A stretch of DNA of 64,000 nucleotides from Sacculina carcini (lineage: Eukaryota; Arthropoda; Thecostraca; Sacculinidae): assembly GCA_916048095.2 (NCBI GenBank), contig OU696592.1, positions 7,141,427 through 7,205,426 on the forward strand, in the 5' to 3' direction. Under the pieces are notes generated by a model. That model saw only the letters and a list, made by a program, of their open reading frames with translations, had not been told where the DNA came from and made no database searches. The translations under genes and the position numbers were made by a program. The first letter of the stretch is position 1. Each line of letters starts with the position of its first letter. Below, piece by piece: positions 3,001 through 25,800 of this stretch.

Positions 3001-6000
3001 GGAATAAACGGTGGGAATAAAGTACAAGTTAGATGTGGCCTGCTTATGAAGAATACTTATAACAGGTGCTAATTTAACTTACTTTAACACTCACTGATAG
3101 TGCAGGTAACAAAGTATTGTAAAATTTATATCACTATTAATCAATATTTTATAGGTATATCTGGTTGAAATTGTGTTTCGTAGTATATGTACGAACTTAT
3201 GCGTATATGCTTATGCGTATATGCTTAATACTGTTATAATGCGTGTGTGTTTGTGCAGCGTTCACTGGACCGTGAGCAGGTGCCTCGACATCATGTGAAA
3301 ATTCTGGCTGTTGATGATGGTCAACCTGCTCGCACTGCCACTGCCACTCTCACAGTTATCGTTCAAGATGTCAATGATAACGCACCAACCTTCCTCCAGG
3401 TTCCCTCCACATACACTCACTCATACATACATAAACTCATTCATTCACTCACTCTCATTCATTCATTCACTCTCATTCATTCATTCACTCACTCACTCAT
3501 TCATTCATTCACTCTCTCATTCATTCACTCACTCATTCATTCATTCACTCTCTCATTCATTCACTCACTCATTCATTCATTCACTCATTCATTTATATAC
3601 TCATCCATACATACACTCATTCATTCATTCACTCACTCATTCATTCACTCACTCATTCATTCATTCACTCATTCACTCATTCACTCACTCTCTCACTTGT
3701 TCACTCACTCTCTCATTCATTCATTCATTCACTCACTCTCTCACTTGTTCACTCACTCTCTCACTGTCTTACTCTCTCACTTGTTCACTCACTCTCTCAC
3801 TTGTTCACTCACTCTCTCACTTGTTCACTCACTCTCTCATTCATTCATTCATTCACTCACTCTCTCACTTGTTCACTCACTCTCTCACTGTCTTACTCTC
3901 TCACTTGTTCACTCACTCTCTCACTTGTTCACTCACTCATTCATTCATTCACTCATTCATTCATTCATTCACTCATTCACTCACTCTCTCACTCTCACTT
4001 GTTCACTCATTCACTCACTCTCTCACTTGTTCACTCACTCTCTCACTTGTTCACTCACTCTCTCATTCATTCATTCATTCACTCACTCTCTCTCTCTCAC
4101 TGTCTTACTCACTCACTCACTGTCTTACTCACTCACTCACTGTCTTACTCACTAACTCACTCCCACACTCACCCACTCATGGCCAGGTAATTAACTGGTG
4201 AGTACAGAAAAGTACACACTGTGTACATCACCCACATTCATGTGTGTGTGTGTGTGTGTGTGTGTTCGTGCCGCCAGGACTACCGACCCGTACTATTTGA
4301 GAACCGACCCCCGCAGGAGGTGGCCGAGATAATGGCTGCTGACGCTGATGACCGCAGCAGTCGCAATGGCCCGCCATTCACGTTCAAAATGGACCCCAAG
4401 GCCGACGATGTCATCCGATCTGGCTTCAGAGTAGAACACGACCCGAGTATGTTGTACTTGTGTTTGTAGGGGACGTTGAGATATCTAGCACTTGTATGCA
4501 TGTTTTGTTTTCTCAGTGGAATATTCAGTACCGTGTCAATCTATTATCGTATATGCTGTATCGTTTATACGACATAGTTTATCTTTTTCTCCGGATTTTT
4601 CTAATGAAAATATTAAATTATTTTAATTGAACTTTGATAGTACCAATATAAATACACATATTGTGTGTGGTTTGCATGTGTGTGTGTGTACAGCTGGTAA
4701 TAATGGTGACGGAATGGCTATAGTGAAATCGCTCAAGTCATTTGATCGTGAGGAGCGCAAACAGTATCATATTCCCATAGTGATCAAGGACGCTGGCACC
4801 CCGGCACTGTCTGGAACCTCCACTCTGGTGGTTGTTATTGGAGACGCCAATGATAACAAGATGCAACCGGCTGACAAACATATTCACGTCTATAATTACC
4901 GGGTAACTAACTAACTCACCTACACTCTGACATACAAACATACAAACATACAAACACGTCTATAATTACCGGGTAACTAACTAACTCACCTACACTCTGA
5001 CATACAAACATACAAACATACAAACACGTCTATAATTACCGGGTAACTAACTAACTCTCCTACACTCTGACATACAAACATACAAACATATTCACGTCTA
5101 TAATTACCGGGTAACTAACTAACTAACTCTCCTACACTCTGACATACAAACATACAAACATATACACGTCTATAATTACCGGGTAACTAACTAACTAACT
5201 CACCTACACTCTGACATACAAACATACAAACATATTCACGTCTATAATTACCGGGTAACTAACTAACTAACTCACCTACACTCTGACATACAAACATACA
5301 AACACGTCTATAATTACCGGGTAACTAACTAACTAACTCACCTACACTCTGACATACAAACACATACACCCACACACCCACACTAACACACACACACACA
5401 CACACACACACACACACACACACACACACACACTGACACACACACACGCACAAACACTGACACATACATACATACTGGCACAGACGGACATGCACACTCA
5501 TAAAGATGTTTCTGTGCGCACACTCAAAGTCTTACAGTGTACCATGGCTCACTTGTACCATGATTCACTTGTACCATGATTCACTTGCACCATGGTTCGC
5601 TTGAACCATGGTTCACTTGCACCATGGTTCACTTGTACCATGATTCACTTGCACCATGATTCACTTACACCATGGTTCATTTACACCGTGGCTCATTTAC
5701 ACCATAATTCACCATGGTTCACTTAACAGTCGTAGTACCACAGTAAGCATGATATGTGAGTGTTGCCGTGGCGATTGTGTTGTGTGCTGACAGGGCATGA
5801 ACCCGGTCGTGGAGGTGGGGCGCGTGCATGTTGATGATCTGGACGACTGGGATCTGGCTGACAAGACGTTCTTCTGGAACGGCGCCGAACATCCGTCGTT
5901 TCATCTCAACGAGAACTCTGGCATGATCACAATCCGTGAGAACACGCTGGCGGGCAGCTACTCGCTGCGGTTCCTCGTTTTTGATCGCAAGCACACACAG

Positions 6001-22800: not shown

Positions 22801-25800
22801 CAAACGCGGCCAATAATTGTGTGCAGGACCGGTCTCCTGAAGCAGAAGATATGAACTACACCTTGCCAGGCTTTGATGCGGACAATTTTCAACCGCAACA
22901 TTTGCAGGTATGTTAACATGTCAGCATGTGGCATTGTGATTCGCTTACGTAATGCAGAACACGTCCCTGCTCGGTACACATTTGAAAGCATTAACTGTGA
23001 GTTTACGGCCTTGATGAAACTAAATCACAATTGGTGAATGCGTTTGTGCGTTTTCCACACAATTTTACGATTCAGCGTTTCATTGATTTTGAAATAGTTG
23101 TGCCAACGACCGTATAAATTTATGTTTGCGCTTGTATTTGGTAAATCGTAGTCTGTTAATGTTAATGGTTGTCGTAGTGTTGGATGTTATTATCAATGTT
23201 GGATGATATCAATGTTGGAAGTAATTATCAATGTTGGATGTGGTTATTTATGTTGGAAGTAATTATCAATGTTGGATTTTATCATTGTTGGAAGTAATTA
23301 TCAATGTTAGATGTTATTATCAATGTTGGATGAGGTTATTAGTTGATGTAATGTGTGACGGGTGTAGATGTTATTATCAATGTTGGATGAGGTTATGAGT
23401 TGATGTATTGTGTGACGGGTGTAGATGTTATTATCAATGTTGGATGAGGTTAATAGTTGATGTATTGTGTGACGGGTGTAGATGTTATTATCAATGTTGG
23501 ATGAGGTTATTAGTTGATGTATTTTGTGACGGGTGTAGATGTTATTATCAATGTTGGATGAGGTTATTAGTTGATGTATTGTGTGACGGGTGTAGATGTT
23601 ATTATCAATGTTGGATGAGGTTATTAGTTGATGTATTGTGTGACGGGTGTAGATGTTATTATCAATGTTGGATGAGGTTAATAGTTGATGTATTGTGTGA
23701 CGGGTGTAGATGTTATTATCAATGTTGGATGAGGTTATTAGTTGATGTATTGTGTGACGGGTGTAGATGTTATTATCAATGTTGGATGTGGTTATTAGTT
23801 GATGTATTGTGTGACGGGTGTAGATGTTATTATCAATGTTGGATGAGGTTAATAGTTGATGCATTGTGTGACGGGTGTAGATGTTGCCCCTGCCCTGGTG
23901 CATATGTGGGTGTGGCGCGTGTCGACCTCGAGACTTGACGCCTGATGACCGTGGACCGGTATCTGCACGACAATGTGACGACTGCGTTGCAGAGCAGCTT
24001 GATGCACTGTTGCATCGTGCATCTGATCAACTGGCAGATACTGGTCTCGTTGATAGACTGGAGGAAATCAGTTCTCTGCTGCTGAAACATGACAGTTGCG
24101 TGGACTCATTGCTGCTCAACAAGCAAAGTTAGTGTTATCGCCAGGACAACCAGCCAATACATTGTTCTAAATTAGTATTTATAATAGTGTAATTTATGAT
24201 CTCAGGTTATCATAGTGAAGTGAAGCTCAGTTAATGTGAACATTTGTTTACTGTTTCTATTTCAGGTTATCATAGTGAAGTTCAGCTAGTGTGGACAATT
24301 GTTTGCTCTTTCTATCAGAGCTTTCTGGTTCATACAATTACTCAGTTCTGTCCTGTCTAAATTAAATATATATATTGTCATGTCATTTTGATTGAAGTTT
24401 TTGGTTTCCAAATGCAGGTATATTTGGCTTCGGTTCTTGCTGTATGCTCATATCGAGTAATGCTCAGGTTTAGAAAGATGTGCGCGTGCAAGTATCATAA
24501 AAATAGCCCATTCGAGTTAAAAATATGTTAATTGAGTTTGATTTATTGTATGATAACGATTGTGTGTGTGTGTGTGTGTGTGTTTCAGGTCGTGTGCAGT
24601 TGTTGAAGGCTCTGCTGATTCTAGGTGTTGATTACAACGTGGCCAGCTCACAGACGATGTTACCTCACAAAATGAGGCAGTTCAAGTGTTGCGTGCAGCT
24701 GTGTGCCCGAGTGTTGGCTGTCAGCAATTGTGTGTGTGATTATTTGGTGTCTGTCGAGTCTGGCAGTCAGCGATCTCAATCTCTTCTACATCTACTGCTC
24801 AACATATGTGACTTTGAACACATGGCTGTCTCTCTGAAAATTCTCGCGCTTCGAGCTCTCTCCGCTGCCGTCAACTGGCCTTCAGGAATTCAGGTCAGTT
24901 TTGTGCATGTTCTCACAGACTTGTGCGTTTAATACACGCACATACATATATGTGTGTGTGTATTGTGCACGTTTCAGATGGTATATTGTGTATAATTGGT
25001 TGATTGCATTATTATTGTTGTGTTTGTTGTTATTAATGTGACTGTTGCACTTTGTTTTTGTTTCACAGATGTTCGTCTCACATTCTGATCATACTGGCAC
25101 GTGCTACCAGCGCACGCTGTTTCATATGATGAACAGCAAACTGAGTCGCGTCAAACTGGCAGCTTCAACAATCATACGCAAGGTGCAGGCGCATTGCTGG
25201 TGCTGTTTGTGTAGCTGTCTGTGTGTGTGTGTGTGTGTGTGTGTGTGTGTGTTTGTGTGTGTGTGTGTGTGTGTGTGTGTGTGTGTGTGTGTGTGTGTTT
25301 GTGTGTGTGTGTCTGTGTGTGTGTGTGTGTGTGTGTGTGTGTGTGTGTGTGTGTGTCTGTGTGTGTGTGTGTGTGTGTGTCTGTGTGTGTGTGTGTGTGT
25401 GTGTCTGTGTGTGTGTGTGTGTCTGTGTGTCTGTGTGTGTGTGTGTGTGTGTGTGTGTGTCTGTGTGTGTGTGCCAGTGTGTGTGTGTGTGTGTGTGTGT
25501 GTCTGTGTGTGTGCGTGTGTGTGTGTGTGTGTGTGTGTCTGTGTGTCTGTGTGTGTGTGTGTCTGTGTGTGTGTGTGTGTGTGTGTGTGTGTGTGTGTGT
25601 GTGTGTCTGTGTGTGTGTGCCAGTGTGTGTGTATGTGTGTGTGTGTGTGTGTGTGATCAAGACTGCCAATACGTAACATGAGCTAATGAGAACATTGTCA
25701 GCTTAGTCAGTTCATATATCAGTTATCAATTGCAGCAAGCCGAGGGACAGAAGGTTTTGATGAGCGAGCCGTTATACTAACAGTATCATAAACATCCAAT

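Follow-up and report, generated by a model that had tools for sequence, protein, structure and literature searches.

Minisatellite arrays that repeat splice sites at exon borders in Sacculina carcini

Why should an intron present many near-identical copies of its own splice site? The question is raised by a stretch of 64,000 nucleotides (nt) from Sacculina carcini (assembly GCA_916048095.2, contig OU696592.1, positions 7,141,427 to 7,205,426; hereafter the window, with positions counted from its first letter), in which minisatellites of an N-cadherin-like gene and of a virilizer/VIRMA gene lie across coding exon borders. An initial annotation had claimed at least five such arrays in the two genes, each with the splice signal inside the repeated unit, and had asked whether tandem duplication has hotspots at exon borders or whether redundant splice sites are tolerated or selected. 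The five arrays are borne out here, the repeat arrays and the in-frame exon borders agreeing with each other and the motif count returning the claimed copy numbers (7 and 16 donors; 38, 6 and 10 acceptors), and five introns each present 6–38 near-identical splice sites. The arrays are probably intronic minisatellites whose founding unit chanced to lie across an exon border, with neutral tandem growth afterwards and splicing kept correct by proximity.

The window arrays were located with Tandem Repeats Finder (TRF) and the copies carrying a splice signal were counted by motif, a procedure by which a copy with a lost signal could escape. All five are on the + strand. In the N-cadherin-like gene, array A1 (4874..5362, TRF consensus 72 bp) follows exon 4694-4902 with 7 donor copies spaced 66–72 bp apart, the unit containing TACCGG/GTAACT (the slash marks the border) and 18 nt of coding exon, and array A2 (13648..14843) follows exon 13422-13658, with the next exon at 14880, and has 16 donor copies of 77 bp with AAACT/GTGAGA and 11 nt of exon. 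The other three are acceptor arrays of the virilizer gene: A3 (18035..19764, before exon 19761-19896) with 38 copies of 46 bp, the unit containing CATAATAG/TGCG and 4 nt of exon; A4 (22153..22383, exon 22372-22907) with 6 copies of 38 bp, GTATAG/G(C/T)GATGTG and 12 nt of exon (1 mismatch); and A5 (23308..23885, exon 23881-24127) with 10 copies of 57 bp, GGTGTAG/ATGTT and 5 nt of exon. In A1–A5 the exon-side copy is the authentic splice site and stands in register with the remaining copies, which are evenly spaced with no interior gap, the lone gap in the 46-bp array (A3) being a variant copy that still carries AG. With up to 38 copies and 96% matches, the existence of the arrays is beyond chance. 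A weaker case proposed at 7621-7935 fell away. The 73-bp intronic array found there (7635..7937, + strand) begins some 11 nt into the intron and adjoins but excludes the donor after 7623; this donor is out of register, the sequence 1, 2 and 3 periods downstream being unrelated to the donor context.

Such a description depends on the exon borders, which were placed by hand in the window from reading frame and splice sites. The 3' part of the N-cadherin-like gene (350..15306, + strand, stop at 15306) was assembled from 22 exons joined in frame and identified by domain profiles, its product having cadherin repeats, Ig_Shg, EGF and laminin G domains and a cytoplasmic cadherin domain, a set indicative of a cadherin of the non-chordate type. 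The first 7 exons of the virilizer/VIRMA gene, which runs on, occupy 16886..24893 (+ strand) and were recognised by their joined frame, a VIR_N profile match (E=1.6e-51) and homology. A single open frame runs through the 22 cadherin exons and another through the 7 virilizer exons, with matching phases at all borders, including those at the arrays (the donor borders follow 4902 and 13658; the acceptor borders precede 19761, 22372 and 23881). Across the junction of virilizer exons 2 and 3 (the 19761 border, array A3) the product matches the solved virilizer homolog 7vf2, presumably the human protein, ungapped, the sole gap of that alignment being further upstream, near exon 1/2. The A3 border was thereby confirmed by homology; 22372 and 23881 were set by reading frame.

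Two further arrays came from a sample of 24 stretches of 10 kb at fixed round genome coordinates (10,370 of 240,000 bases being N), in which exons were predicted with a codon model, a fourth-order coding model having overfitted and been dropped. Together the sample and the window gave 57 listed minisatellites (44 and 13, respectively). Array A6, in an AKT gene (stretch L005, - strand), has 20 donors in a 28-bp unit that includes 23 nt of exon, and the AKT protein aligns ungapped across this junction to a solved RAC-beta kinase. Array A7, in a class-B G protein-coupled receptor (GPCR) gene (stretch L013, - strand), has 60 acceptor copies of a 24-bp unit with 12 nt of exon. Its frame joins cleanly; the 7tm_2 profile match (E=7e-5) ends 4 residues beyond the junction and therefore lends that border weak support. 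In total, seven splice-spanning arrays were found in four unrelated genes in about 300 kb examined. In all seven the unit spans an exon end plus intron start, or an intron end plus exon start, with 4–23 nt of exon, and GT or AG is kept in 149 of the 157 copies (97/97 in A1–A6 and 52/60 in A7, where 8 copies have lost AG). The arrays are in register with the authentic border, as judged by the frames and, at A3 and in AKT, by homology. An alternative explanation, that errors in the gene models have placed on the borders arrays that in fact lie next to them, or that the arrays are artefacts of assembly, could point to 22372 and 23881, where reading frame is the only guide; it is highly improbable given frames with matching phases through 29 exons and ungapped homology across the junction at A3 and in AKT.

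Several other minisatellites were considered as splice-site arrays and set aside. The array at 7395-7561 of L005 resembles by eye the 3' tail of a long interspersed nuclear element (LINE), and no exon is visible by eye at L018 79-131 or 9790-9972. Two more, window 42025-42432 and L016 588-2936, stop roughly 26 and 37 nt, respectively, short of acceptors placed by eye, and L015 7801-8303 begins 58 nt beyond a predicted donor. Gene labels attached to some of the models (ZC3H3-like, IFT140, TMEM161 and ACLY) were given by eye with no search behind them and are to be taken as presumptive.

The units do not appear to share a source. In DNA searches of the whole genome (264 Mb, 43 contigs), which skip very common words, the 77-bp array matched its own locus only, and the 57-bp array its own locus and related repeats directly beside it. 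The 46-bp array gave 44 other matches, which are TG-rich look-alikes at 66–79%. Because the first two arrays are local and the matches of the third are look-alikes, every unit was most likely formed at its present locus, as far as comparison of the sequences goes, and the same searches, with common words skipped, argue against a shared mobile origin.

Whether exon borders attract such events is a separate matter. Under one alternative, borders would be hotspots at which, for example, splice-linked R-loops, pausing or chromatin edges make more arrays start, and the splice site does lie inside 7 of the 21 arrays that could be assigned to an intron. In 27 hand-checked introns, together 16,626 bases, arrays account for 29.7% of the sequence; coverage is 53% at depths of more than 400 nt from a border and drops to 9% in the 5 nt nearest to it. 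The number of array-covered borders in these introns was 5 out of 54, compared with a mean of 9.1 when the patterns were slid circularly within introns (P(>=5)=0.97). A second, straddling test used the 21 arrays that were assignable by hand to an intron (10/13 from the window and 11/44 from the sample). Of the 36 left out, three are window arrays: 43107, where no exon was visible, and 52292 and 59357, which lie within open frames. The other 33 are sample arrays without identified exons on both sides, L019 2978-3300 next to an ACLY-like exon among them. The borders used were 1 nt off at window 42025-42432 and L016 588-2936. Under a loose null, in which any straddling unit is tolerated if it touches the intron, the 7 straddling arrays compare with 4.86 expected (P=0.17), with 5 seen against 2.96 expected in the window (P=0.115) and 2 against 1.90 in the sample (P=0.60). 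The exonic share of the unit ranges from 0.09 to 0.82 and does not depart from uniform (Kolmogorov–Smirnov P=0.16, n=7).

Chance placement has several points to answer. The fall in coverage toward borders is partly built in, because an array adds length to its intron, and such introns are the ones contributing the deep bases; the sliding test treats a border as any other base; and introns and arrays were assigned by hand, for 21 of the 57 arrays. In addition, the answer on border excess depends on the null chosen: the 7/21 compare with 3.30 expected if the unit may hold at most 25 nt of exon (P=0.028) and with 1.96 if it may hold at most 12 nt (P=0.0013), an excess that a hotspot would explain. 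The loose null is preferred since a border-spanning duplication spares the exon however much exon its unit holds, and since most of the AKT unit is exonic. On balance, the position of the arrays at borders does not go beyond chance. The hotspots suggested by the initial annotation found no backing in the slid patterns, in the loose null or in the 11 assignable sample arrays, although the stricter nulls do give an excess. A hotspot is unlikely and is not needed, with the small numbers leaving room for a modest one.

No named system of this kind was known to the initial annotation; one does exist, described in amphioxus, a cephalochordate. There, “mirages” are minisatellite-like tandem duplications of an exon–intron border, donor or acceptor, in the Adh3, globin, PGBD5 and troponin C genes, with units from 10–72 bp (Adh3) to 150–160 bp (globin) (PMC3087553, PMC3902484). 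Adh3 data and globin reverse transcription–polymerase chain reaction suggest, according to the authors, that regular splicing is undisturbed (PMC3087553). The mirages have in common with the present arrays a border-spanning tandem unit and many copies of the splice signal, the amphioxus globin array having 6 and 3 units in two haplotypes, whereas the present arthropod arrays have 6–60 copies.

Human and other parallels are less close. A 31-bp variable number tandem repeat (VNTR) at exon 13/intron 13 of human CBS has a unit (c.1444_1467+7) of 24 exon and 7 intron bases and occurs in 16–21 copies (PMC2630376, PMC1395315). It resembles the present arrays in that the unit spans the donor and differs in being one human locus that is polymorphic between people. 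Alternative use of the CBS VNTR copies has been reported. In the CBS 844ins68 allele, a 68-bp duplication, a choice of 3' splice site arises and the insertion is skipped (PMC2630376); this is a single extra copy and no array. Intron gain by tandem genomic duplication (AGGT) likewise results in extra splice sites (PMC3443670), the new intron there forming inside an exon, whereas in the present arrays existing introns stay in place. No report of splice-site-spanning arrays in arthropods was found in the titles and abstract beginnings of the open-licence papers listed, which for the search aimed at arthropods were 12 of 51. The present arrays extend a little-known amphioxus oddity to a different animal lineage and to a larger scale, with up to 60 copies.

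How such an array might arise without harm can be sketched as follows. A founding tandem duplication would include the exon end, the splice site and the intron start, leaving the exon and its own site intact, and the extra copies would become intron and be discarded with it. A border-spanning duplication would be harmless because exon and authentic site are unchanged and the copies turn into intron, and the resulting array would for the same reason be nearly invisible to selection. Slippage or unequal exchange could then lengthen and shorten it, as in other intronic minisatellites, of which these introns hold many. The copy next to the exon would win, either because splicing recognises the exon as a whole or because the nearest site is preferred; in older tests with duplicated splice sites the nearest site tends to win. 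Of 150 non-proximal copies, 149 would, if used, bring in a premature stop within the stretch tested (6/6 in A1, 14/15 in A2, 37/37 in A3, 5/5 in A4, 9/9 in A5, 19/19 in A6 and 59/59 in A7, the last including 8 copies without AG), so that a full-length protein needs the exon-proximal copy. These stops, together with the undisturbed splicing in amphioxus, suggest that the exon-proximal copy is the one used.

The remaining alternative is that the arrays are kept for a function, redundant weak sites boosting recognition, or the choice of copy yielding stop-containing transcripts that tune output; all alternative copies but one do lead to a stop, as a decay switch would need. Selection on the signal was examined by column conservation in A2–A6, A1 being excluded for its varying unit length and A7 also standing outside the test. 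Interior copies show no variation in the splice dinucleotide columns, and the same holds for 80–95% of all columns; because of this high background the probability of such invariance by chance is 0.64–0.90. There is no sign that the splice dinucleotides stand out as better kept. The loss of AG in 8 of the 60 copies at the GPCR acceptor likewise speaks against function, as does the statement that amphioxus arrays do not disturb splicing (PMC3087553). Of the earlier proposal that the redundant sites are tolerated or selected, tolerance fits these data, and selection for redundancy finds no support, with no sign that the splice columns are better kept than most.

The acceptors themselves are less easily accommodated by a purely neutral account, which does not predict them. 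All three window array acceptors end in TAG, compared with CAG in 25 of 25 others (Fisher P=0.0003; noticed afterwards). Scored by weight matrix, they take places 1, 2 and 5 from the low end among the 28 acceptors, a post hoc ranking with a matrix trained on the same sites that were ranked. Five sample introns end in TAG as well, among them the AKT intron with donor array A6. The arrays could have replaced the usual TG tract, or weak sites could matter. The weakness of these acceptors is what a functional role would draw on, and the post hoc ranking takes from its force; we give that role little credence. A broader version, in which splice-site arrays are common genome-wide and functional, the copies propping up weak sites and array length setting splicing efficiency and varying between individuals, is scarcely credible; if true, array length would be a natural dial on gene output. 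Each array intron amounts to a natural competition assay, with 6–60 near-identical sites that differ little except in distance from the exon. Gene finders are also at risk of misplacing borders at such arrays, a simple predictor having set the AKT exon end 18 nt off.

Concerning the TG tract, 30 of 44 introns had GT runs of at least 8 nt within their final 80 nt, replacing a plain pyrimidine tract. The 44 introns came from the window and from stretches L005, L013, L015, L016 and L019; 6 of the 17 sample introns have a border displaced by a few nt, and a GC-AG intron is included from the window. The idea that (AC)n near the 5' end pairs with (GT)n near the 3' end of introns was considered and is not suggested, because AC runs do not outnumber GT runs in the first part of the introns (7 vs 11). 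In titles and abstract beginnings of the two open-licence papers listed on AC/GT introns, nothing of the mirage kind was found.

Some further features accompany the host genes. The GC-AG intron lies in the cadherin gene (747-978, GAG/GCACGT). Within another cadherin intron (1141-3258) and on the same strand there is a tRNA-Sec gene at 2795-2881 (+; anticodon TCA; Rfam RF01852, 80.3 bits). A second EGF-plus-transmembrane frame occurs at 12909-13160 (+), between cadherin exons 12239-12477 and 13422-13658, and, judged by eye, might stand in for the first EGF-plus-transmembrane frame; fly CadN has mutually exclusive exons, to which this arrangement may be likened. Elsewhere in the window, minisatellites lie in long minus-strand open frames at 52292-52821 and 59357-59502, the second having a 48-bp unit that keeps the frame. 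At both of the 5S loci examined, L002 and L003, a histone H2B frame lies some 1.1 kb away from the 5S gene, with Pfam confirmation for L002. Behind an engineered-looking tandem chain, the best matches of the H2B next to a 5S gene are six chains scoring 238–242 bits, 2pyo and 2nqb from fly among them, and all further chains score 205 bits or less. Taken with the non-chordate type of the cadherin, these matches by themselves would make the host likely arthropod-like and unlikely to be a cephalochordate; a COX1 search gave no match. Among the 5S rRNA matches listed, at least 41 (41 of the 43) are on contig C15 at 4.11–4.58 Mb.

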